From positions 1-64,000 of the forward strand of contig CALMZP010000131.1 of assembly GCA_937870635.1 (NCBI GenBank): a stretch of DNA of 64,000 nucleotides, given 5' to 3'. Made by a program: the position numbers and the translations under genes. Below, piece after piece: positions 5,231 to 64,000 of the stretch (within the stretch, counting starts at the first letter, position 1; every line of letters begins with the position of its first letter). This DNA is from an uncultured Acidobacteriota bacterium (GTDB lineage: Bacteria > Acidobacteriota > Thermoanaerobaculia > Gp7-AA8). The notes beneath the pieces are model-generated. The model saw only the letters and a list, made by a program, of their open reading frames with translations, was not told where the DNA came from and did not search any database.

Positions 5231-5947
5231 CTACTGAGCGACGATTGCCAGATTCCTGCCGCCTCCCTTTCCGTCACGCCGGTAAGAGTGGAAGATCGAT
5301 CCCTCGCAGCGCGTGCACAGTCCCGAATCGACGATACTTCCTTCTGCAAACCCTCGGTTACGAAGAAGATCGACCGTCAGGGCGACGACGTCGACGTGCG
5401 GCTTCGAGCCCGACCGATCGACATACCGTTCCATCCCCTCGTACCGCGCGGAGAACTGATCGACGACCTCCTCGCCGACCTCGAAACAGCATGCGCGGAT
5501 CGTCGGGCCGAGGTAGGCGCGCGCGGCGGCGGGGTCGAAGTGTGCGGAGTGCTGCACGGCATCGATCGCAGCGGCGGTGATCTTCTGCACCGCGCCGCGC
5601 CATCCCGAATGAACGTTCGCGATGACCTCGTCGGCCACGATCGTCACCGGCAGGCAGTCCGCGACCTTGATCCCCAGTGCGACACCGCGATCGGCAGTCC
5701 ATAACGCGTCGCAGGAATCGCACTCCCGCCACGACCCATTGCGCTCCGCCTTCTGCACAATGGCGCCATGGACCTGCGTGCAGGTGCTGAGCGAAGCTTC
5801 GATGCCGAAGCGCCCGCGGATGAAGTTCCGGATCACCGCCACGGCATCAGCGTCGAGCCGTCCGCTGATGTCGCGGGTCGTGTAGAAGACAGGATCGCGC
5901 TGCGAAACGACGACGCGACCAAGGGAGGTTTGTTCGATGGAAAACAT
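5231..5947 (-). CDS. pgeF: Peptidoglycan editing factor / purine nucleoside phosphorylase, PgeF (YfiH/LACC1 family)
   Basis: A 238-residue copper/zinc-type multi-activity enzyme of the laccase-domain family. In bacteria PgeF trims aberrant muropeptide precursors, and homologues act on purine nucleosides. Signatures are CTQVHGA, DALWTADRGVALGIKVADCLP, VIANVHSGWRGAVQKI and CCFEVGEEV, which carry the His and Cys metal ligands. The ORF-track start at 6004 is rejected: its extra residues (SQSKIQNPKSQ) are translation of an adjacent heptamer repeat array. The ATG at 5947 (MFSIEQTSLG) is the first start outside it. The repeat abuts this ATG, so no Shine-Dalgarno sequence is visible. Proximity to the penicillin-binding protein fits a wall role. 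Confidence 0.9.
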   Translation of the reverse strand: MFSIEQTSLGRVVVSQRDPVFYTTRDISGRLDADAVAVIRNFIRGRFGIEASLSTCTQVHGAIVQKAERNGSWRECDSCDALWTADRGVALGIKVADCLPVTIVADEVIANVHSGWRGAVQKITAAAIDAVQHSAHFDPAAARAYLGPTIRACCFEVGEEVVDQFSARYEGMERYVDRSGSKPHVDVVALTVDLLRNRGFAEGSIVDSGLCTRCEGSIFHSYRRDGKGGGRNLAIVAQ

Positions 5948-6065
5948 TTGGGATTTTGGATTTTGGATTTTGGATTGAGAGATCCATGCAAAATTCAAAA
6001 TCATTCAAAATCATTCAAAATCTAAAATCTAAAATCTAAAATCCAAAATCCAAAATCCAAAATCC
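5948..6065. repeat. Heptamer inverted-repeat array, TTTGGAT flavour (copy A)
   Basis: Left arm: about three to four TTTGGAT units (5950-5976). Right arm: the complement, ATCCAAA units, grading inward into ATCTAAA and then ATTCAAA variants (about 5990-6062). The arms can pair through the outer units; the inner part of the right arm is diverged. AT-rich island in GC-rich surroundings. Fills the whole gap between the start of pgeF and the end of the DUF4388 gene. Confidence 0.95.
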
Positions 6066-6066
6066 C

Positions 6067-9116: not shown

Positions 9117-9206
9117 CTGCATTTTGGATTTGCGATTTTGGATTTTGGATTCCCACAGCCCGCGCGGAAAGAAAAATCCAAAATCCAAAATCCAAAATCT
9201 AAAATG
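9117..9206. repeat. Heptamer inverted-repeat array, TTTGGAT flavour (copy B)
   Basis: Left arm 9121-9151 with about four units, one carrying a substitution (GGATTTGCGATTTT). A spacer of about 22 bp follows, then a right arm of ATCCAAA units ending at 9204. It fills the gap between the TonB-family gene and vanZ, and its end touches the vanZ ribosome-binding region. Confidence 0.95.
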
Positions 9207-11689: not shown

Positions 11690-12687
11690 CACGCATCCCT
11701 CCGCAGCAGCGAAAGGAACAGAGGGACGCCCAGAAGCGCCGTGAGCGCCGCGATCGGAAGCTCCACCGCAGGGATGGCAACCCGCGCGACGATGTCCGCC
11801 GCCACCAGAAGGGTTGCGCCGCCAAGCGCCGTCAACGGCAGCAGGACCCGGAAATCGCGCCGCCAGACGAGGCGTACCAGATGCGGCACCAGCAGCCCTA
11901 CGAACCCGATCACTCCGGTCACCGAGACCGCCGCGCCGGTGATCAGCGAGCCGCAGAGGAACCCGGCGAGCTTCACACGCTCGACCTCCACCCCGCGCGA
12001 CTTGGCGTCCTCTTCGCCGAAGACGAGCATCCGCAGATCGTTCGCCATCCAGGCGAGGACGATCATCGCTGCCGCCAGGAACGCGGCCAGCACTAGGGTC
12101 TCGAACCACGTCACACCCTGCAGCGATCCCATCATCCAGCGGAGCGCGGCAGTCAGATCGGTCTGTGTCGAGAACGAGAATGCGATGAGGATCACCGCGG
12201 AGAAGAACGCGTTGAGCACGAGCCCCGAAAGGAGCAGCCGCGTCGGATCCGTGTGCTCGCGCCGTCTGGCCAGCAGAAACACCGCCGCCGTCGCCGCGGC
12301 CGCGCCGGCGAACGCGATGATCTGCACGAGGCCCGGATACTTTCCCCAGCCAAGGGCAGTCGCGACGGCCGCACCTGCCGCTGCCCCGCCCGAGACGCCG
12401 AGGATGAAGGGGTCGGCGAGGGGGTTGCGAAGAAGAGTTTGAAACGCGAGTCCAGCCACCGCGAGGATCGCACCGGCCAGCGCGGCCGCGACGACTCGCG
12501 GCGCGCGGATGCGCAGGAGGATCGCCCGCGCGGTCTCGTCGTGCGCAAGCTCACTCCATGACAGCGAAGCCGATCCGACCGAGATCGCGATCGCAATCAC
12601 GATCAGAAGAATCAATCCGAGCAGCAGGATCGAATTGAGAATTGAGAATTGAGAATTGAGAGTTGTCGGCTTCAAGTTCTTTCTCAA
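11689..12687 (-). CDS. btuC: FecCD/BtuC-type ABC transporter permease
   Basis: About 330 residues with ten hydrophobic helices and the FecCD family segments LRIRAPRVVAAALAGAILAVAG, NPLADPFILGVSGGAA and TGVIGFVGLLVPHLVRL. It forms the inner-membrane channel of the importer. The first codons lie in heptamer array D: the track start at 12687 is TTG and gives NSQFSILNS, which is repeat translation. The next in-frame starts (TTG 12615, GTG within the first helix) would cut into helix 1. The original N-terminus therefore seems to have been rewritten by the repeat. Confidence 0.88.
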   Translation of the reverse strand: MRKNLKPTTLNSQFSILNSILLLGLILLIVIAIAISVGSASLSWSELAHDETARAILLRIRAPRVVAAALAGAILAVAGLAFQTLLRNPLADPFILGVSGGAAAGAAVATALGWGKYPGLVQIIAFAGAAAATAAVFLLARRREHTDPTRLLLSGLVLNAFFSAVILIAFSFSTQTDLTAALRWMMGSLQGVTWFETLVLAAFLAAAMIVLAWMANDLRMLVFGEEDAKSRGVEVERVKLAGFLCGSLITGAAVSVTGVIGFVGLLVPHLVRLVWRRDFRVLLPLTALGGATLLVAADIVARVAIPAVELPIAALTALLGVPLFLSLLRRDA

Positions 12688-12720
12688 TTCTCAATTCTCA
12701 ATTCTCAATTCTCAATTCCT
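12632..12720. repeat. Heptamer inverted-repeat array, GAATTGA flavour (copy D)
   Basis: Left arm: four GAATTGA-type units from 12632 to about 12662. A spacer of about 18 bp follows, then five complementary TCAATTC units (12682-12718). Same architecture as the TTTGGAT arrays with a different core. It spans the junction between btuF and btuC, overlapping the btuC start and the btuF stop region. Confidence 0.95.
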
Positions 12721-16618: not shown

Positions 16619-16930
16619 GGGTTTCGGGCGATTGCGGGATTGTAAACCAGACCTTGGACCCTGGACCCTGGACCTTGGACCCTGGTCCAGGTCCAAGGTC
16701 CAGGGTCCAGGGTCCAAGGTCCAGAGCACCCAGCGGCGAAACGTGTAGCCGAAATGCTCTCGAGCGCCCCCGCTTGCATTTCCCTCTCGGGTTTCGCATA
16801 CTGCCTCCCGCACCGCGTGCGACGATCGTGAGAAGGCAGCCTGCCGGGCGTTAGAGATTTTTGATTCTCCGCCTCGATATCGTCGGATCCAGGGACTCAC
16901 AGGTTGCAGCAAACGGCTTATTGATTTTGC
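16619..16930. other. Intergenic region between divergent kinase and rho, with heptamer array E
   Basis: 312 bp. Bases 16648-16723 are the GGACCTT array, listed separately. The remaining 200 bp upstream of rho hold no ORF, tRNA or recognisable riboswitch. No strong Shine-Dalgarno sequence is seen just before the rho ATG. Promoters for both genes must lie here, but I could not define -10/-35 boxes. Confidence 0.6.
16648..16725. repeat. Heptamer inverted-repeat array, GGACCTT/GGACCCT flavour (copy E), mirror-ordered
   Basis: Five units on each side. The variants GGACCTT and GGACCCT occur in the order T,C,C,T on the left. The right arm is the exact reverse complement over 30 bp (16652-16681 against about 16690-16719), so the variant order is mirrored. 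The loop is under 10 bp. This is the cleanest hairpin of the heptamer class here. Confidence 0.95.
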
Positions 16931-22404: not shown

Positions 22405-22624
22405 ATCCCGAGCGAAGCGAGGGATCTCCGGAAGCACCGGCAGGATTGAGGTTGATGGCCTGTCTAAGTGGAGCGCGGGCGACCTCGCCCGCGGCCCCTT
22501 CACGCCAAGTAGTGGGTCTCGCCCTTCGCACCGGTCGCGTGCGAGGTCGCCCGCGCTCCACCATTCCCCCCTTGTGGGTCCGTTCAGCGCGGTGTTACCG
22601 GAGATCCCTCGCTTCGCTCGGGAT
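22405..22624. repeat. Nested inverted repeats (GAGCGAAGCGAGG outer, GGAGCGCGGGCGACC inner)
   Basis: The outer arms of 27 bp (22405-22431 and 22598-22624) are exact reverse complements. Inside them, 21-bp arms (22468-22488 and 22541-22561) of another family are also exact reverse complements. The right outer arm lies within the 3' end of rimO and encodes its last residues. The structure suggests insertion of one palindromic element into another. No gene occupies the gap. Confidence 0.92.
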
Positions 22625-33724: not shown

Positions 33725-34852
33725 TCACGCGCCGAAGTGGGTGCGGTCGGCGTCGTACGTACGTCCTCGCCAGGCTAGCTGCCCACGCACGCCTGTGACC
33801 CACATCGACCGCATCCACAGCCACGTCCAGAACAGGATCATGAATGGATGCGCCCAGACGGCGTCATGGAGGGGATAGCGCAGTGCCGCGAAAAGGATGA
33901 GCCTGGTGAGCGTGATCAACGCCACCGTGATCACACTCACGAGCTCGCCAGTCGCAGCCCAGAAGTAGGGCATCACATGAAACACCAGCCCGAGAATGCC
34001 CAGACCGATGGTGAGGAAGTAGCTTCGGTGGAAGACGGCGAAAATGTTCTTCGTAAATCCTTCCACGATCGCCCGCCGCCCCTGATACATCCGCACCGAC
34101 GTGAGCGAGCTCGCGCGCACGACGGTCGTGCGGTATCCGTTCCGGCGAAGGAGACGCGCGGTGGCAACGTCGTCGATGACGGCCTCACGCAGCGCTGCGT
34201 GGCCGCCCACCGCATCGTAGTGATCGCGGCGAACGAGGTTTCCCGTGCCCCCGCCCACCCCGAGAATCGGAATGAGGGTCCGGTTCCCGAGCCAGGTCGG
34301 AAGGATCGAATAAGCGACCACCGCCAGATACGGCATGGCCAGCCTTTCCCAGAACGTCTCCATGACGAGACGAGGGAACAGCGTGACCATCGAGCTCCGC
34401 GCGGCATGCAGCTGCGCGACAGCCGCCGCGACGGCGGGGGGCTCGTAAACGATGTCGGCATCGACGAACAGAAGCAGCTCGCCTCGCGCGAGACCCTGCC
34501 CCTGATGGAGCGCCCACGGCTTGCCGAGCCAGCCATCGGGAGGCTCCACACCATTGATGACGCGAAGCCGCGGATCCTCGGCTGCAACGGAGTGGAGAAT
34601 CGAACCGGTGGCGTCGGCGGAACGGTCATCGACCACGATGATCTCGAGCGATTCCCACGTCTGGGCGAGGAAAGCCCGCACGGTGCGCTCGATGCTCTCC
34701 GCTTCATCGCGGGCAGGGATGATCACCGAGACGAGAGGCCCGCGCGTCTGCGCGCCTTCTTCGAGCCGGGGGATGAGCAGGAGATTGAGGATCGTCCGGA
34801 TCAGCGTGGTGACCCACGCGATCAGGACGATCCACTGAAGGTAGTGTGCCAT
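33725..34852 (-). CDS. Membrane glycosyltransferase family 2 (HpnB/CrtQ-like)
   Basis: 375 residues from ATG 34852 (MAHYLQWIVLIAWVTTLIRT); the track N-extension is repeat. An N-terminal helix is followed by the GT2 domain: VSVIIPARDEAESIERTVRAFLAQTW, LEIIVVDDRSADATG, the DxD-type LLLFVDADIVYEP, and the acidic VIDDVATARLLRRNGYRT. Three C-terminal helices (FLTIGLGILGLVFHVMPYF and others) complete an architecture like hopanoid-associated HpnB or carotenoid CrtQ transferases. Neither acceptor nor sugar donor can be fixed; no hopanoid or carotenoid gene is nearby. Confidence 0.85.
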   Translation of the reverse strand: MAHYLQWIVLIAWVTTLIRTILNLLLIPRLEEGAQTRGPLVSVIIPARDEAESIERTVRAFLAQTWESLEIIVVDDRSADATGSILHSVAAEDPRLRVINGVEPPDGWLGKPWALHQGQGLARGELLLFVDADIVYEPPAVAAAVAQLHAARSSMVTLFPRLVMETFWERLAMPYLAVVAYSILPTWLGNRTLIPILGVGGGTGNLVRRDHYDAVGGHAALREAVIDDVATARLLRRNGYRTTVVRASSLTSVRMYQGRRAIVEGFTKNIFAVFHRSYFLTIGLGILGLVFHVMPYFWAATGELVSVITVALITLTRLILFAALRYPLHDAVWAHPFMILFWTWLWMRSMWVTGVRGQLAWRGRTYDADRTHFGA

Positions 34853-34854
34853 TC

Positions 34855-34920
34855 GATTTTGGATTTTGGATTTTGGATTTTGGGGCAATCCAAAATCCAA
34901 AATCCAAAATCCAAAATCTC
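34855..34920. repeat. Heptamer inverted-repeat array, TTTGGAT flavour (copy H)
   Basis: Four TTTGGAT units, a very short loop (GGGGCA), then four complementary units: a nearly uninterrupted 30-bp-arm hairpin. It lies between the glycosyltransferase start and the end of the TPR gene. Confidence 0.96.
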
Positions 34921-37031: not shown

Positions 37032-37328
37032 TTACTTCGGCAGTTTGATCTCCGGCTTATCGTCCCGCGCGCGATACAGGATCGCGATCTTCCCGACGGT
37101 CCCGGCGAGGTCGGACAAGGTAGCCGCCGCAAGCTTCGCCGCGAGCTCCTTCCGCTCCCCGGAGTCATCGGACTCGATCTTCACCTTGATCAACTCATGG
37201 GCGGCGAGGGACTTCTTCGTCTCCTCGACGACCGCGTCGGTCACCCCTCCCTTTCCAACTCGCACCACCGGTTCGAGCGGATGGGCCAGACCCCTCAGAA
37301 ATTGGCGTTGTTTCGATGTCACGGTCAT
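37032..37328 (-). CDS. yhbY: YhbY family RNA-binding (CRM domain) protein
   Basis: 98 residues from ATG 37328 (MTVTSKQRQFLRGLAHPLEPVVRVGKGG). The CRM domain is complete: LRGLAHPLEPVVRVGKGGVTDAV, HELIKVKI and GKIAILYRAR. YhbY associates with pre-50S ribosomes. The proposed ATG lies inside one arm of a 107-bp palindrome, which also covers the expected ribosome-binding site; the track start 18 bp upstream is likewise in it. Expression may therefore be shaped by a hairpin in the leader. Confidence 0.9.
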   Translation of the reverse strand: MTVTSKQRQFLRGLAHPLEPVVRVGKGGVTDAVVEETKKSLAAHELIKVKIESDDSGERKELAAKLAAATLSDLAGTVGKIAILYRARDDKPEIKLPK

Positions 37329-37430
37329 GGTGTCAGGTCTGGACATTGGACATTTCTTCCAGAACTAGTGTGTGCCAGGCACACACTAGTTCTGGAAGAA
37401 ATGTCCAATGTCCAGACCTGACACCATGAC
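37324..37430. repeat. Perfect 107-bp palindrome with TGGTGTCAGGTCTGGA ends
   Basis: Base-by-base pairing from 37376/37378 outward to 37324/37430 shows 53-bp arms without a mismatch around a single central base (37377). The outer part reads TGGTGTCAGGTCTGGA, the same as the palindrome at 61169; the inner parts differ. It occupies the space between yhbY and the aminotransferase gene and includes the yhbY start codon. Confidence 0.97.
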
Positions 37431-42790: not shown

Positions 42791-42829
42791 CCGTTAAGGA
42801 CCGTTAATGCCTTCGGGCGTAGCGTCCAG

Positions 42830-42906
42830 GTGGAGCCGCGGGCGATCTCGCCCGCGGACGTGAAAACCGAAAGGCAACCCGCGGGCGCGATCGCCCGCGG
42901 CTCCAC
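42830..42906. repeat. GC-rich inverted repeat, GGAGCCGCGGGCGATC family
   Basis: 18-bp exact arms (42830-42847 and 42889-42906), each containing an internal CCGCGGGCGA-TCGCCCGCGG palindrome. Same family as the inner repeat at 22468 and the units inside the AI-2E permease gene at 52955. It is preceded by three short CCGTTAA copies (42784-42806). Confidence 0.92.
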
Positions 42907-42941
42907 CAGTCAGCGGACTTACAGTGAACGGTGAACGGAGC

Positions 42942-46340: not shown

Positions 46341-46376
46341 GATACCGAATTGATTTCGTGTGTCATCCCGGCCCTT

Positions 46377-46442
46377 GATTTTGGATTTTGGATTTTGGAT
46401 TTTGGATTTGGGTCAATCCAAAATCCAAAATCCAAAATCGAT
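46377..46442. repeat. Heptamer inverted-repeat array, TTTGGAT flavour (copy I)
   Basis: Four to five TTTGGAT units, a loop of about 6 bp, then three to four complementary units. It lies between the sdhC start and the end of the metallophosphoesterase gene, so it probably sits in or near the sdh leader. Confidence 0.96.
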
Positions 46443-46444
46443 CA

Positions 46445-47731
46445 TCACTTCTCCAGCTTCCTTTTCACTTCCTCGCGCACCCGGACCCCGGTGCGCTTGA
46501 TCACCGCTCCCTGGAAGAAGTCGCGGTACCCGGCGGCCATCGTGGCGAGGTAATCGGTCGTGGCAACGATTGCCGTCTCACCCTTGACGGTTCCCGTGGT
46601 GAACGCGGACCAGTCACCCTTCTGGCGGCCCGCGTAGGCCAGCAGTTCCCGCGCTCTCGCCGCCGGGAGCTGAACCACGACGATCTCGTTGTCATAGGGC
46701 AGCGCCGCACGAAGCGTCTCGAGATCGATCGGACCCGCGGGAAGTGGAGACCGGAAACTGCTCGCCGTTGAAAGAGCGAGATCGGCCCCCGCGGACTCTC
46801 GCATCATCTCGACCGTGAGCGCGGCCAGAGCGGGAACGCCGATCGTCTCCGGAAGCGTGACGAACGGAACGAAGAACTCTCGATACCGCGGATCCTCGCG
46901 CAGCGCCGCCCGCATGGCCGCGACACGCGTCTCGATCCCGCGGTCCGCGTCCATCCTGGAATCGACGGGGACGAGCCCGCCGCTGACTCCGGTGAGCCCG
47001 GAGCCGGCGAACTCCATCTTCACCCGGCTGATGGACGCCAGGTACTGCGATGGCGAGACGAACCAGGTCTGCGTCCCGGGAATCCGCATCAGATCCTGTT
47101 TGAGATGGCTGTGTGTTCCGAAGATGAGATCGATCCCGGGAACCTTCCGCGCCAGAGCGAAATCGTCGGGCGCGCTCTCGTGTCCGATGAGAACGACGGC
47201 GTCGACCTTCTCGACTTCGCGCAACGTGCGGACAGCCTCGCGCGCCGCTGCGACCGGATCGCCGAACCGGAGCTCTGGAGCGGCCGCGCGCACGAGGCTC
47301 GGAAAGTCCGATCCGGCGACGGCGAAGACGCCGATGCGGATGCCGTTCGATTCGAGCACGGTGTACGGAGGGAACCCGCCCGTGTTCGCGCTGAGGATCG
47401 GATAGCGGACCGCGTCGCGGCAGGCCGCGAACTCGCGATAACCGTAGTCGGCGTCGTGATTGCCAAAGGCCATGGCGTCGACGATGCCGTCGAGCCACGT
47501 CCATTCAGCGCAGCGATAACGGTCCGACCACGCCGGCGCGCCTTTGTTCAGCATGTCCCCGCCACTGAAGACGAGCGCGCCCTCCGCTTTGTGACGAGAC
47601 AGGAAGCCGATCGCCCGGGCGATCCCGCCGCGGTCCGTCCCCTCCTCCGAGTGAAACGGAAGAGCGTGTGAGTGATAGTCGGAGAAATGAAGAAGCGTCA
47701 CGGTGGCCGCGACGATCAGGAATGAGTGCAC
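46445..47731 (-). CDS. 5'-nucleotidase / 2',3'-cyclic phosphodiesterase-type metallophosphoesterase, secreted
   Basis: 428 residues. A short hydrophobic leader (HSFLIVAATVTLL) precedes the metallophosphatase motifs: HFSDYHSHALPF, VFSGGDMLNKGAP, AMAFGNHDADYG, VLIGHESAPDD and IFGTHSHLKQDL. The C-terminal 5'-nucleotidase domain follows (LTVEMMRESAGADLALSTASSFRSPLPAGPIDLETLRAALPYDNEIVVV). It would release phosphate from nucleotides outside the cytoplasm. It is flanked on both sides by heptamer arrays (copies I and J), a single-gene cassette between two hairpins. Confidence 0.9.
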   Translation of the reverse strand: MHSFLIVAATVTLLHFSDYHSHALPFHSEEGTDRGGIARAIGFLSRHKAEGALVFSGGDMLNKGAPAWSDRYRCAEWTWLDGIVDAMAFGNHDADYGYREFAACRDAVRYPILSANTGGFPPYTVLESNGIRIGVFAVAGSDFPSLVRAAAPELRFGDPVAAAREAVRTLREVEKVDAVVLIGHESAPDDFALARKVPGIDLIFGTHSHLKQDLMRIPGTQTWFVSPSQYLASISRVKMEFAGSGLTGVSGGLVPVDSRMDADRGIETRVAAMRAALREDPRYREFFVPFVTLPETIGVPALAALTVEMMRESAGADLALSTASSFRSPLPAGPIDLETLRAALPYDNEIVVVQLPAARARELLAYAGRQKGDWSAFTTGTVKGETAIVATTDYLATMAAGYRDFFQGAVIKRTGVRVREEVKRKLEK

Positions 47732-48130: not shown

Positions 48131-48640
48131 ATGAAACGGGTTTCTCTTCTCTCTCTCCTGGTCCTTCTCGTTTCCCTTCCAGCCGCAGCACAGACCCCCG
48201 CACCCCTCATCACGTCGGTGCGGCCGGCGGCGGGGCCGACTTCCGGCGGCACACTCGTCGTCATCACCGGTACGAACCTCGGCCTGCCGCCGAACTTCTC
48301 GTGCATCCTGCCGTGTCCGGCGATGGTCCGCTTCGGATCTGCCGAAGTCCCGGCAATCGAAGAAAGCAACACGTCGCTGACGGTCCGCACGGGCGATAAC
48401 CGCACTACGACCGCGCCCGGTGCCTTCACGTACATCACCGACCGCGAAGCGGGATACACGACTGCCCGGATATTCTGGATTTTGGATTTTGGATTGAATG
48501 GTCAAATCCAAAATCCAAAATCCAAAATCCAAAATATCCGGGCCGGCGCCACACCAATCTTTGCCGACGGCTACTTCCCCAGCGCGCTGGCCATCTCTTT
48601 GATGGCGGCTTCGCGGCCCTTTTCTTTCGCGATCTTCTGA
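48131..48640 (+). pseudogene. Secreted IPT/TIG-domain protein interrupted by heptamer array K
   Basis: ATG 48131 follows GAGGTGAAC. A signal peptide (VSLLSLLVLLVSLPAAAQ) leads to an IPT/TIG domain (APLITSVRPAAGPTSGGTLVVITGTNLG...FGSAEVPAIEES...GAFTYI). After about 112 codons the frame enters repeat K (WILDFG, IQNPKSK) and ends in sequence antisense to the next gene. TIG proteins normally continue with further domains, so the gene is truncated. It has a good start and could still make a short secreted product. Confidence 0.75.
48467..48542. repeat. Heptamer inverted-repeat array, TTTGGAT flavour (copy K), with GCCCGGATATT flanks
   Basis: Three units, a spacer of about 9 bp, then four complementary units. 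The pairing extends beyond the heptamers: GCCCGGATATT on the left (48467-48477) and AATATCCGGGC on the right (48532-48542). It lies inside the reading frame of the TIG gene. Confidence 0.95.
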
Positions 48641-58956: not shown

Positions 58957-59127
58957 GTTTCCTTTTCTCTCCTTACGGGACCCTGGACACGAAAGCAGAA
59001 GATCGGGCCGACACGCCCGGCGGACCGTGACGCAAGTCACTCCGCGCACACACCGCGTACTTTGAATTGTATGGACCTTTTGGAGCGGTTATTGTGAATG
59101 AGATCTATTCGTTTCGCAACCCGGGAC

Positions 59128-59204
59128 ACTCTGGATTTTGGATTTTGGATTTTGGATTTCCAAGTCAATCCAAAATCCAAAATCCAAAATCCAAAATCCA
59201 AAGC
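59128..59204. repeat. Heptamer inverted-repeat array, TTTGGAT flavour (copy N)
   Basis: Three to four TTTGGAT units, a loop TTCCAAGTC, then five complementary units. It lies in the divergent gap between the protease and the Ser/Thr kinase, ending about 28 bp before the kinase start. The rest of the 275-bp gap (58957-59231) holds no ORF. Confidence 0.95.
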
Positions 59205-59231
59205 CGGGTCGGTCTAATATCATTGACTCCA

Positions 59232-61160
59232 ATGGCCTTCCACTGCATCCGCTGCAAACGCGAAATCGACAAAACGTACATGGCCTGCCCCCACTGCGGG
59301 GAGCCGGTCACCGACTTCCTGCGCCGCTATGCGGACGAGCCGGTCGACGGTAAGTACCAGATCGTGGAACGACTTGGCGCGGGCGGCATGGGCGAGGTCT
59401 ACAAAGTCACCCACACCTACCTCGGCGCCACCCGCGTCATCAAGGTCATCCGCCCCCAGATCTCCGAGAGCAAGGACGCCCACGAGCGCTTCCTCCGCGA
59501 GGCCCGCGCGGCGACGAAAATCCAGCACCCCAACTTCGCGACCCTCCACGACTTCTCCGCGCTCCCCGACGGGTCGCACTACATGGTCTGGGAGTACATC
59601 GACGGCGAGAACATCGCCCAGCGGATCCGTACGCGCGGCAATCTCCAGCCGCGTTACGCGGTACGCCTGATCATCCAGGCCCTGCATGGTCTCGATGCAC
59701 TGCATCGAGCGGGCATCGTCCATCGCGACATCAGCCCGGAGAACATCATGATCACGCGCGAGGAGCCCGAGCGCGTGAAAGTCATCGACCTCGGTGTCGC
59801 GAAGGTCGAGGACAGCGTCGATGCCGCGACGCGCGTCGGGGTCTTCGTCGGCAAGCTTCGCTACGCGTCGCCGGAACATCTCGGCTTCCTCCCCGATGGC
59901 GAGAAAATCGACGGTCGCGCCGATCTCTTTTCGCTGGCGATGGTGCTCTACGAGATGCTCGCCGGCCGTCCACCGTTCGAGGCCACATCGCCCCACGAAT
60001 ACGTCATGCTCCATTCGCGCGAGCAGCAGTTCCGCCCGCTCGATCTTCCGGCGGACCTGCCCGGAGGCGCGCAGCTGCAGGCAATCCTGGCGAAGGCGCT
60101 CGACCGCGATCGCAACAAGCGCTTCGCCAATGCGCGCGAGTTCGCCGCTGCGCTCGAGGAGGTCGAGAAGACGCTGCCCGACCCGAACGTCATGCAGACG
60201 ATGCATCTGCAGGCGCTCGACACGGATGCGACCTGGACGCCGACACCGCTTCCCTCCATCGACACCCTGCATCGGCAGACCGTGCGCGACACGAAAGCCG
60301 AAGCACCGCCGACGATCCGCACTCCGCTGCCGCCCATGGGGGCGGCGCCGACCATCCAGACGCCGCTTCCGGCGTCGATCCCCGCTCCTCCGCCGCAACC
60401 GGCCCCGGTCGTTCCGCGCGCGCGGCACGGAAGTTTCGCGGCGTTCGCGATCATCGCCCTCATTCTCCTCCTGGCAGGGGGAGCGATCGCAGCCCTGTAT
60501 CTGTGGCGCGGCCGCGGCTCGAAAGAGGTCGCCGAGGTCCGGCCGCCCGCCGAAACGCGGACGGCAACCACGGCGCCGCCGCCATCGCAGGCCAACGTCG
60601 ATGTGATCACCACGACACCGACCGCAACGACGGCGACCACTGAGACGGTCCTCACGGACATTCCCTCTACGACGGCGTCGCCGACGCTCTCGACGACGAA
60701 TGTTCCGGCGGTGGCTACGATGCCTCGCGTCGAACGTCCGGCCCCCGTGCCGCAACCGACACCTCCCCCGGTGCCCGCTCCGGCGAACGTCCGCACATAC
60801 GTCGATGGCGACAGCGGCGATGCCGACGTGAACGAGCAGTTGCTGGCCCACCTTCGCCGGCAGCTGACTGGCGTTCGGTCGGTGGCGGTGCGTGGAAGCG
60901 GCGAGATGTACGACGATCTCGTGAACAGGATCCAGTCCGATCACGGACTCGAGGTCGTGTCATCCGCGGACACGGTGATCACCTTCAACGGCACGCTGGA
61001 CCGCCTCGGTCGCGGCCGAAAGCGACGCTCGGCCGAGGCCACGATCACGAAGAACGGCCGCGTGATCTTCCGTTACGAGCTCCCGCCCGAGGAGTTCCGC
61101 GTCGGCGACAGCCCCGCCGAGGCGTTCTCGCGAGTGATCTCGGAAGCCTTCAACAACTGA
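59232..61160 (+). CDS. Transmembrane Ser/Thr protein kinase with N-terminal zinc ribbon
   Basis: 642 residues from ATG 59232 (MAFHCIRCKREIDKTYMACPHCG); the earlier track start crosses the repeat array. A four-Cys zinc ribbon (CxxC...CxxC) precedes the Hanks-type kinase (about 40-305): LGAGGMGEVYKV, RVIKVIRP, HRDISPENIM and DLGVAK (DLG in place of DFG, as in some PknB relatives). A Pro/Thr-rich linker, a transmembrane helix (FAAFAIIALILLLAGGAIAALYLW), another low-complexity stretch and a periplasmic C-domain (TYVDGDSGDADVNEQLLAHLRRQL...RVGDSPAEAFSRVISEAF) follow. The C-domain is not the TonB type seen on the kinase at 13958. Confidence 0.9.
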   Translation: MAFHCIRCKREIDKTYMACPHCGEPVTDFLRRYADEPVDGKYQIVERLGAGGMGEVYKVTHTYLGATRVIKVIRPQISESKDAHERFLREARAATKIQHPNFATLHDFSALPDGSHYMVWEYIDGENIAQRIRTRGNLQPRYAVRLIIQALHGLDALHRAGIVHRDISPENIMITREEPERVKVIDLGVAKVEDSVDAATRVGVFVGKLRYASPEHLGFLPDGEKIDGRADLFSLAMVLYEMLAGRPPFEATSPHEYVMLHSREQQFRPLDLPADLPGGAQLQAILAKALDRDRNKRFANAREFAAALEEVEKTLPDPNVMQTMHLQALDTDATWTPTPLPSIDTLHRQTVRDTKAEAPPTIRTPLPPMGAAPTIQTPLPASIPAPPPQPAPVVPRARHGSFAAFAIIALILLLAGGAIAALYLWRGRGSKEVAEVRPPAETRTATTAPPPSQANVDVITTTPTATTATTETVLTDIPSTTASPTLSTTNVPAVATMPRVERPAPVPQPTPPPVPAPANVRTYVDGDSGDADVNEQLLAHLRRQLTGVRSVAVRGSGEMYDDLVNRIQSDHGLEVVSSADTVITFNGTLDRLGRGRKRRSAEATITKNGRVIFRYELPPEEFRVGDSPAEAFSRVISEAFNN

Positions 61161-61168
61161 GTTGGTCC

Positions 61169-61280
61169 GGGTGTCCTGGTGTCAGGTCTGGAAAAAGGAC
61201 AAACCGGACAAAAGTAGTCGTTCACTAACGATTACTTTTGTCCGGTTTGTCCTTTTTCCAGACCTGACACCAGGACACCC
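61169..61280. repeat. Near-perfect 112-bp palindrome with TGGTGTCAGGTCTGGA ends
   Basis: Pairing runs from 61169/61280 inward to 61222/61227 with a single mismatch (61217/61232) and a 4-base loop. The segment TGGTGTCAGGTCTGGA is shared with the palindrome at 37324; the central AAAAGGACAAACCGGACAAA part is unrelated to it. It lies between the convergent kinase and glutamate dehydrogenase genes. Confidence 0.97.
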
Positions 61281-61281
61281 C

Positions 61282-64000
61282 TCAGCTTTCCGCTAACGCC
61301 CTCAGCGACCTTGAGGCCACCGTCAGCATGGCGATGTCGACGTTCGGCGCGGACCTCACCTCGGTCATGGTCTGCTCGATCCGCTCGACGACGCGGCGTC
61401 GCTCCGACAACCAGTTCTCGACCGGGTCGCCGGCCTTCGCGCCGTTCGTCTCGCCGATGACTCTCGATGCGAGAACGCTCTGGTAATTGAAGAGGTCATC
61501 CACGAGCGCGGCCACAGCCTGCTTCTGCCATGGTGTGTCGGCGGCGATCGACGCACCCGCGGCACGGAGGCGGTCGAGCCCGAACCGGGCGCCCAGGCCG
61601 AAGTAGACGCGGGCGACTTCCTCGACACCCTGGCCTTTCTTCGCGTCTTCGCCGCGGGAGATGCGAACGATGTCCATCGCCGAGGTCATGACGTCGAGCG
61701 CGGCGATTCTGTCGGCGAGGTCGGCGGGGATGCCGCTTTCGATGAGCTTCGCCTTGCGCGCATTGACGTTCTCCAGGACCGAGGCTGGCAGGATCTCGGC
61801 GAGCCTGCCTTCGATTGCCGCGATGCGCGGTTTGAATTCATTGATGTAGGCGTTGATGTCGAGGCGCTCGTAGTCCGAGCGGAGAATCCACCGCAGCGCC
61901 CGTTCCAGCAGATTGCTGACCGAGATCATCATGTCGGTCTGCAGCGCGGCGGGAACCTTGTTGTCCAGCTGCTCGATTGCGGTCCAGACGGAGCGAAGGT
62001 CGAACGTGTCGCGAATGATGGTGAACGCGCGCGCCACATCGCTCGACGGTTTTCCGGTCTCGTCCGTCATCTGCCAGACGAAGGTCGGCCGCAGCCGGTT
62101 GATCACGTTGTTCGTGACATACGTGGTGATGATCTCGCGGCGCAGACGATGGCGTCCGATTGCCGCGGCAAACCGCGAGCGCAAGGCCGGCGGGAAGTAG
62201 AGGAGGAGGTCGCCGACCAGAAGCGGGTCATCGGGAAGGTCGGACTTGAGCAGATCTTCGGACAGCACGATCTTCGTGTATGCGAGGAGGACGGCGATCT
62301 CCGGCCTGGTGAGGCCGAGGTGAGCGGCGTGCCGCTCGGCGATCGTCTCGTCGTCCGGGAGAAACTCGATGGCACGGTTGAGCCGTCCGGCCTTCTCCAT
62401 CGCGCGCATCGCCCGGGCCTGGATGTCGAGCAGCGATTCTCCGAGCGCATGCGTGATCGTGATCGCCTGGGTCTGCTCGTAGTTGTCGCGAAGGACGAGC
62501 GCGGCCACGTCATCGGTCATCGTCGCCAGGAGCTTGTTGCGGACGGCGATGTCGCCCTCGAGCTCGCCGCGCTCCATCGCGTCGTAGAGGAGGATCTTGA
62601 TGTTGACCTCGTGGTCCGAGGTGTCGACGCCGGCTGAGTTGTCGATGGCATCGGTATTGATCCTGCCGCCGTTCAGGTTGAACTCGATCCGTGCCGGTTG
62701 CGTGAATCCGAGGTTGGCGCCTTCACCGACGACGCGAACGCGAACCTCGGTGGCGTCGACCCGGATCGGATCGTTGGCCCGATCGCGGGCCGCGCTGTGA
62801 TCTTCGTCGCTCGATTTCACATAGGTGCCGATCCCGCCGAGCCACAGCAGGTCCGCCTTCGCCTTCAGAATGGCCTTGATCAGCTCCGCCGGGGTCACCT
62901 GCTTCTGGGGGAGCTCGAACAGAGCCTGCGCTTCGGGCGACAAAGTGACGGTCTTCGCCGAACGCGCGTACACCGCGCCGCCGCGCGACAGCAGCTCAGC
63001 GTTGTAGGCGTTCCAGTTCAGCCGCATGTCGAACAGGCGGCGCCGCTCATTGATGCTCGTCCGCGGATCAGGAGACGGGTCGATGAAGATGTGCGAATGG
63101 TTGAACGCGCCGATCAGCTTGATGTGCGGCGAGAGCAGCATGGCGTTGCCGAACACATCGCCTGACATGTCGCCGACACCGATGACGGTGAAGTCCTGGC
63201 TCTGCGTATCGATGCCGAGCTCGCGGAAATGCCGCTTGACGGCTTCCCATCCACCGCGCGCGGTGATGCCCATTTTCTTGTGGTCGTAGCCCGCTGATCC
63301 GCCTGACGCGAACGCATCGCCGAGCCAGAAACCGTAATCCGCAGAGACGCCGTTGGCGATGTCGGAGAACGTTGCGGTGCCCTTGTCTGCAGCGACGACG
63401 AGATAGGGATCGTCGGGATCGCGGCGGACGACATCCCGCGGCGGAATCACCTCGTCGCCGCGCAGATTGTCGGTAATGTCGAGCAGGCCGCGCAGGAGCG
63501 TCTTGTACGCCTCGATGCCTTCCTGCTGATACGTCTCGCGATCGGCAGAGGGGTTCTTCACGACGAACCCACCCTTCGACCCCATCGGCACGATGACGAC
63601 GTTCTTGACGTTCTGCGCCTTCATGAGGCCGAGGATCTCGGTGCGGAAGTCCTCGCGGCGGTCAGACCAGCGGATGCCGCCGCGCGCCACCTTGCCGAAG
63701 CGCAGATGCACGCCCTCGACGCGCGGCGAATACAGGAAGATCTCGTAGAGCGGCTTCGGCAGCGGCAGGCCGTCGACCTTGGCGCATTCGAACTTGAAGG
63801 CGATGGTCTCGCGCGGCAGGCCGTTGTCGCCGATCTGGAAGAAGTTGGTGCGCGCCGCCGCCTCGACGAGGTTGACGAAGCGGCGCAGGATGCGGTCGTC
63901 CTCGAGGCTCGTGACGTTGGCGAGCATGATCTCGATGTCGGCGCGCAGCGCCGCCTGGTGCTCGGCGCGCGTCGCCTCCTCGCGGCGCGGATCGACGCGG
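61282..64000 (-). CDS. gdhB: Large NAD-specific glutamate dehydrogenase (C-terminal part; continues past right edge)
   Basis: About 906 codons are visible and the frame is open to base 64000: VDPRREEATRAEHQAALRADIEIM precedes the track's first Met, so the listed start is internal. Catalytic-domain blocks of the 180-kDa family: EDDRILRRFVNLVEAAARTNFFQ, FGKVARGGIRWSDRREDFRTEILGLMKAQNVKN, VPMGSKGGFVVKNP (active-site Lys), the NAD-binding FTVIGVGDMSGDVFGNAMLLSPHIKLIGAFNHSHIFIDP, and a long helical C-terminus. It deaminates glutamate to 2-oxoglutarate in amino-acid catabolism. The upstream N-terminal regulatory half is outside the window. Confidence 0.95.
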   Translation of the reverse strand, partial: RVDPRREEATRAEHQAALRADIEIMLANVTSLEDDRILRRFVNLVEAAARTNFFQIGDNGLPRETIAFKFECAKVDGLPLPKPLYEIFLYSPRVEGVHLRFGKVARGGIRWSDRREDFRTEILGLMKAQNVKNVVIVPMGSKGGFVVKNPSADRETYQQEGIEAYKTLLRGLLDITDNLRGDEVIPPRDVVRRDPDDPYLVVAADKGTATFSDIANGVSADYGFWLGDAFASGGSAGYDHKKMGITARGGWEAVKRHFRELGIDTQSQDFTVIGVGDMSGDVFGNAMLLSPHIKLIGAFNHSHIFIDPSPDPRTSINERRRLFDMRLNWNAYNAELLSRGGAVYARSAKTVTLSPEAQALFELPQKQVTPAELIKAILKAKADLLWLGGIGTYVKSSDEDHSAARDRANDPIRVDATEVRVRVVGEGANLGFTQPARIEFNLNGGRINTDAIDNSAGVDTSDHEVNIKILLYDAMERGELEGDIAVRNKLLATMTDDVAALVLRDNYEQTQAITITHALGESLLDIQARAMRAMEKAGRLNRAIEFLPDDETIAERHAAHLGLTRPEIAVLLAYTKIVLSEDLLKSDLPDDPLLVGDLLLYFPPALRSRFAAAIGRHRLRREIITTYVTNNVINRLRPTFVWQMTDETGKPSSDVARAFTIIRDTFDLRSVWTAIEQLDNKVPAALQTDMMISVSNLLERALRWILRSDYERLDINAYINEFKPRIAAIEGRLAEILPASVLENVNARKAKLIESGIPADLADRIAALDVMTSAMDIVRISRGEDAKKGQGVEEVARVYFGLGARFGLDRLRAAGASIAADTPWQKQAVAALVDDLFNYQSVLASRVIGETNGAKAGDPVENWLSERRRVVERIEQTMTEVRSAPNVDIAMLTVASRSLRALAES

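Follow-up and report, generated by a model that had tools for sequence, protein, structure and literature searches.

Two convergent genes, which we take to encode a Ser/Thr protein kinase-like and an NAD-glutamate-dehydrogenase-like protein, face each other across a 112-bp palindrome in the window (the whole 64-kb stretch of DNA that was analysed; Table 1). The true start of the kinase-like gene is probably downstream of the start of its longest open reading frame, near 59220. A sequence-only reading of this DNA had described a giant palindrome with one mismatch, and this description is confirmed: the arms, 61169-61222 and 61227-61280, are 54 nt each, lie 4 nt apart, and are 98% complementary (one mismatch). 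As single-stranded DNA, the palindrome is predicted to form a single hairpin of -68.1 kcal/mol (z = -19.8 versus shuffled sequences). No T run was seen by eye after either of its ends.

A second palindrome lies in the window at the start of a gene that is presumably YhbY-like. The sequence TGGTGTCAGGTCTGGA occurs exactly four times in the 64 kb, exclusively at the ends of these two palindromes, where 0.29 occurrences would be expected by chance even with three mismatches. The outer ends are thus common to both palindromes, as had been proposed. Their interiors differ in type, C at 61169-61280 and B at 37324-37430. The window encodes no Y1 transposase, and the three found in this genome are on other contigs. 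Hairpins of another kind are formed in the window by GGATTTT arrays facing AATCCAAAATCC (5946-6066, 9120-9206, 34852-34918, 46376-46447, 48459-48548, and 59129-59203), several of them intergenic. Similar inverted arrays of simple units are seen at 12632-12718 (GAATTGA) and 16650-16723 (TGGACCC).

Table 1. Coordinates of the two palindromes of the window, their parts and the adjoining genes.
Feature	Position	Strand	Remarks
Palindromic element, type C, with mirrored flank, 112 bp	61169..61280	.	inverted repeat, fold
Element including 5-bp outer pair GTCCT...AGGAC	61173..61276	.	
Left end motif GGTGTCAGGTCTGGA	61178..61192	+	
Right end motif GGTGTCAGGTCTGGA, inverted	61257..61271	-	
Left mirrored flank GGGT, unique to the 61169-61280 copy	61169..61172	.	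extension 9 = 5 + 4 past common end
Right mirrored flank ACCC	61277..61280	.	
Second copy in the window, type B, GTCAT...ATGAC	37324..37430	.	arms 53 nt, 100%
Presumed YhbY-like gene; its ATG is that of the element's terminal ATGAC (reverse complement of GTCAT)	37032..37328	-	translation MTVTSKQRQFLRGLAH...
Presumed Ser/Thr protein kinase-like gene, longest ORF	59067..61160	+	stop 8 bp before the 61169-61280 palindrome
Presumed NAD-glutamate-dehydrogenase-like gene, convergent	61282..63927	-	stop 1 bp past the 61169-61280 palindrome

With at most one mismatch allowed, the end motif was found at 77 places (39 + 38) in the 4.52-Mb assembly, compared with 3 (2 + 1) for a reversed control. Approximately 64 of these ends pair into 32 elements, about six are truncated at contig edges, and about four are without a partner. 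The motif is thus neither limited to two copies nor found mainly outside palindromes, the two outcomes that the sequence-only reading had named as counting against it. The paired elements comprise 31 short dimers of 83-127 bp and one element of 1159 bp. In total, this genome holds about 38 copies, scattered and mostly transposase-less, a number that is approximate because contigs C11, C56, C123, C124, C141, and C170 break inside element copies. Directly outside GGTG...CACC, the pentamers GTC[A/C]T...A[T/G]GAC are present in 31 of 32 copies, with one change in the remaining copy, and both sides of a copy always agree in the variable base (A or C). The outer sequence GTC[A/C]T-GGTGTCAGG is likewise present in 31 of 32, with no GTAG or GTGG tetranucleotide at the foot of a REP hairpin. 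A literature search for the end motif returned chance matches only.

The 1159-bp copy, found on contig C157, is an IS200-like element: between the ends of the palindromes it has an intact open reading frame for a Y1 (HUH) transposase, whose stop codon is part of the right end. The search for a transposase gene flanked by the same ends, which the sequence-only reading had suggested, was therefore successful. Identical 20-bp inverted ends, GTCATGGTGTCAGGTCTGGA and TCCAGACCTGACACCATGAC, surround the frame at 1343-1362 and 2492-2511 of L062. The protein matches Pfam PF01797 (Y1_Tnp) with 34 bits (cut-off 23) and NCBIfam NF047646 (REP-associated tyrosine transposase) below the cut-off of that model. 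In an alignment with relatives, the HUH and RYxxLNP motifs are intact, with N59, H60, H62, R118, Y119, N123, and P124 invariant. Compared with PDB sequences, a profile of the clade matches TnpA_REP 4er8 of E. coli in the core and domain IV of DnaA in the C-terminal part. As for a C-terminal helix-turn-helix (HTH), L232 and L222 match PF08299 above the cut-off and L217 matches HTH_23 below it; a search with the C157 protein of this genome alone gave no HTH match.

Homologues of this transposase occur in 79 of 101 genomes (this one and 100 relatives), and many of those examined are bounded by inverted ends of the form GGGGTCAGGTCT or near variants. The end in this genome, GGTGTCAG, differs at a single base from the TIR consensus published as GGGGWSAS, and the end in relatives of the class, GGGGTCAG, fits it. 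The C157 protein is, as judged from sequence, a putative TIRYT that resembles TnpA_REP subclass 2.1, with a RAYT core and, in relatives, a DnaA-type C-terminal domain. The GGGGTCAGGTCT-like terminal inverted repeats of the relatives match those of TIRtrons/TIRYTs and of subclass 2.1. The genome also encodes a classical RAYT of 180 amino acids (L061, contig C139), which matches NF047646 above the cut-off and is flanked by GTGGAGCGCGGGCGACCTCGCCCGC. REP-like repeats similar to GTGGAGCGCGGGCGACCTCGCCCGC are found in the window at 22468-22561 (within 22405-22624) and 42829-42907. The third Y1 transposase (L060, contig C170) has 320 amino acids and its own 30-bp inverted ends, TGAGGGTCACGTCTGCACTTCGCACTTTCT.

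Among the same 101 genomes, palindromic dimers with GGGGTCAGGTCT were found in eight, including class relatives. Further away, the same GGTGTCAGGTCT ends enclose a Y1 transposase in Massilia agri, M. eurypsychrophila, Rugamonas apoptosis, and the unclassified bacterium Dive96. In each of these four genomes, the next ~15 bp are specific to the genome and common to the transposase ends and the palindromes of that genome. At L217, L224, L225, and L232, palindromes and Y1 transposase were paired independently by end sequence. A DNA pattern scan of GTDB genomes for both ends gave at least 100 stretches, part of which are other repeats. On reading, AACCTGTCAGGTCT repeats in Chloroflexi and Thiotrichaceae and tandem GGTGTCAGGTCTC in Terriglobia were set aside as such. 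Repeats of the AACCTGTCAGGTCT unit in Chloroflexi, Bacteroidetes, and Thiotrichaceae have a different anatomy (L097, L100, L103, L110-L111, L142, L176, L178, and L188). A contig scan of genomes with the transposase protein yielded no confirmed relatives. The element class thus reaches beyond a single phylum. The occurrence of the GGTGTCAGGTCT end in several phyla, linked to Y1 in four other genomes, extends a little-studied transposase class.

In Massilia, elements of M. rubra or M. mucilaginosa are absent from the orthologous sites of congeners. In the genus of G004, a class relative of this genome, the L283 element is missing from the orthologous sites of G013 and G017; the L192 site holds an element in both G004 and G013 and none in G017. 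The alignments of L272, L274, L280, L269, L205, and L276 were not used, as they are not orthologous across the whole site. The elements L192 (G004)/L297 (G013) and L283 (G004) lie in frame inside genes, to which they add ~30 codons. The host genes, which lack the element in congeners, resemble an rlmI-like methyltransferase (L192/L297) and an oxygenase (L283). Empty orthologous sites in congeners show that these elements move, and by extension from these relatives the family in this genome is presumably mobile as well. The elements thus have the properties of a MITE: they are non-autonomous, share their ends with an autonomous element, and show insertion polymorphism, the latter in Massilia and the relatives of G004. 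The proposal of a mobile class recognised by its ends is borne out by the same ends around a Y1 frame here, in Massilia, in Rugamonas, and in the unclassified bacterium, and by the empty congener sites. The more specific suggestion, a MITE with a trans-acting transposase, holds in that a transposase lies between the same ends on C157 with none in the window; action in trans would be a further, likely step.

The 22 bases inward of the common end served to type the arms. The left end of the autonomous copy is of type A and its right end of type B, which the arms of the 37324-37430 palindrome match. All 31 short dimers are homotypic (20 A/A, 8 B/B, and 3 C/C, including the 61169 copy; none is mixed). 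The mean mismatch per 22 bases is 1.06 within dimers and 5.30 when arms are re-paired, and none of 20,000 permutations gave a value as low. The effect is also seen within type A (0.85 within dimers versus 2.25 re-paired). Each copy is one transposon end plus its mirror image. An autonomous source of the type C arms was not found, the autonomous copy matching A and B but not C. Homotypic arms also occur in G004 (p<1e-4) and G001 (p about 0.001, five copies); they are not significant in G033 and G013 and are absent from the dimers of Massilia and Cytophagaceae. The interiors of the two palindromes in the window had been read as exchanged between shared termini. They do differ, but 31 of 31 short dimers being homotypic is not free exchange, and the expected conserved end with a variable core appears as ends conserved genome-wide around a core of a few discrete arm types.

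The mirroring extends past the element. An inverted repeat of at least 3 bp past the common end is present in the flanks of 14 of 32 copies, compared with 4.8% for flanks of different copies, and it reaches 3-6 bp of unique host DNA. G004 and G013 share an orthologous copy in the rlmI-like gene. Between the two genomes, its right arm and flank show two differences within the stem and a further one at its edge; the two stem differences, one of which falls in the flank, recur in mirrored form on the left. In Massilia and Cytophagaceae, mirrored flanks are not above the null, and flank mirroring is not a general property of the class.

Fold-back template switching appears to explain mirrored arms and flanks best. 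We consider it very probable that the palindromes are non-autonomous, REPIN-like miniature transposons of a TIR-associated Y1 (HUH) transposase (TIRYT), with arms equalised by fold-back copying. The transposase from C157 would presumably recognise the end GTC[A/C]T-GGTGTCAGGTCTGGA and the next ~20 bp and would move the element via single-stranded DNA, leaving the centre free to vary; both the cleavage in trans and the single-stranded route are steps that we infer. The nascent or excised strand could then fold at the centre and copy one arm onto the other, at times continuing 3-6 bp into the host flank. More tentatively, and with somewhat less than even confidence, we suggest that fold-back copying of one end (left-left' or right-right'), flank bases included, both creates the elements and maintains their symmetry. 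If true, this copying would explain how flanks join the palindrome and how a REPIN-like element becomes symmetrical again once it has been excised asymmetrically. Template switching is described as homogenising the arms of inverted repeats and as able to extend their identity (PMC8604942, PMC3820800, PMC8794818). Because there are discrete arm types and mirroring into host DNA, copying between arms is testable by strain comparison.

The mirrored flanks would have a different origin if the elements inserted into small pre-existing hairpins (loop ATGAC/AGGAC, stem 3-6 bp), so that the flanks were palindromic beforehand. Sites of the form X-ATGAC-X' at 14 of 32 copies are consistent with such a target choice; in one of them, GTAGT-ATGAC-ACTAC of L024, the stem contains the apparently natural stop codons of both convergent genes. 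At the one site that is occupied in two genomes and empty in a congener, however, the empty sequence of G017 is not palindromic, although this site is divergent (~75-80% identical) and hence not conclusive, and the two occupied copies there have different flanks, each of them mirrored. We regard target choice as rather unlikely. Matched arms could also be held by selection for hairpin pairing through compensatory substitutions. Such changes are reported in REPINs, where the hairpin is thought to be necessary (PMC3116915), but selection on the element leaves the mirroring of host flanks unexplained, and in L058 both ends carry a rare change, GTCTGCA, at a position of the end that hardly varies elsewhere. 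This reading seems unlikely to us, and fold-back copying is the one that we prefer.

According to rough gene calls, convergent gene pairs flank 12 of 29 classifiable copies in this genome, and many copies lie 1-4 nt from a stop codon. Many sides have a stop codon 1-4 nt beyond GTC[A/C]T, and at several copies the neighbour gene starts at the ATG of the terminal ATGAC; examples of such borders are L024, L026, L017, L041, and 37328 in the window. This placement at element borders is tighter than random intergenic insertion predicts and may reflect target choice or simply what survives in a compact genome, in which element-free convergent gaps of -7 to +29 bp are also present. The idea that mirrored stop codons supplied the end of the neighbour gene was unsupported, as the C-termini at L024, L007, L019, and L058 look natural.

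A bidirectional terminator or mRNA-stabilising host hairpin, immobile and selected at gene ends, would fit the convergent neighbours and close stops described above, as well as the 54-bp hairpin between two convergent stop codons at 61169-61280. It is very improbable given that the same ends bound a transposase, that orthologous sites in relatives are without elements, and that some class relatives carry elements in frame within genes. Long invariant ends are also unnecessary for a terminator, and Rfam gave just sub-threshold generic hairpin matches, mostly to animal or viral miRNA-type hairpins. Slightly less probable still is a classical GTAG-tagged REP/BIME moved by a classical RAYT, which would work alike with conserved ends, a variable centre, and a transposase in trans, and for which L061 and REP-like repeats are at hand, since L061 is bounded by a different repeat, the palindrome ends are those of the longer C157 transposase, and a GTAG foot hairpin does not define them. 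The REP/BIME candidacy raised by the sequence-only reading thus survives as REPIN-like dimers, but these are TIR dimers of a TIRYT transposase rather than of GTAG-REPs.

The transposon family is known, whereas the mirror-dimer anatomy is new. In Rickettsia, palindromic elements are tolerated in frame inside genes. The in-frame palindromes of G004 and G013 resemble these elements, which are mentioned in PMC10969869, in their placement. TIRtrons/TIRYTs (Di Nocera et al. 2013, PMC3733652) and TnpA_REP subclass 2.1 (Quentin et al. 2018, PMC6006769) are closer. TIRtrons are known in Acidobacteria and share with our elements a Y1 transposase and long TIRs that can form repeated families and dimers; their C-terminal HTH has counterparts here in clade members, and their GGGG[AT][CG]A[CG]-type TIR motif in class relatives. 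GGGGWSAS is present in the majority of published TIRs. Here, by contrast, the end is GGTGTCAG and common in its motif to several phyla, the copies are ~95-bp near-perfect homodimers that match the left or the right end, and host flank is mirrored. Families of both homodimers and heterodimers also exist for GTAG repeats (PMC3733652), but those are REP dimers, whereas ours are homodimers, some of one end of a transposon and some of its other, different end. Template switching at quasipalindromes likewise homogenises arms and can extend their identity, but the available portions of those sources describe it for mutation of resident repeats and not for keeping a transposable element symmetrical (PMC8604942, PMC3820800, PMC8794818). 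REPINs (Bertels and Rainey 2011, PMC3116915) share two inverted conserved ends of ~16 bp around a variable, hairpin-forming spacer, compensatory changes, and a transposase in trans, which is likely here, and the REPIN/BIME features of an inverted doublet, a hairpin, and an extragenic position are all seen in this genome. REPIN ends are the REPs of RAYTs, whereas the ends here are TIRs of a longer transposase, with discrete arm types and mirrored flanks. How palindromic mini-elements such as REPINs re-establish their symmetry was named a key issue by the REPIN authors (PMC3116915).
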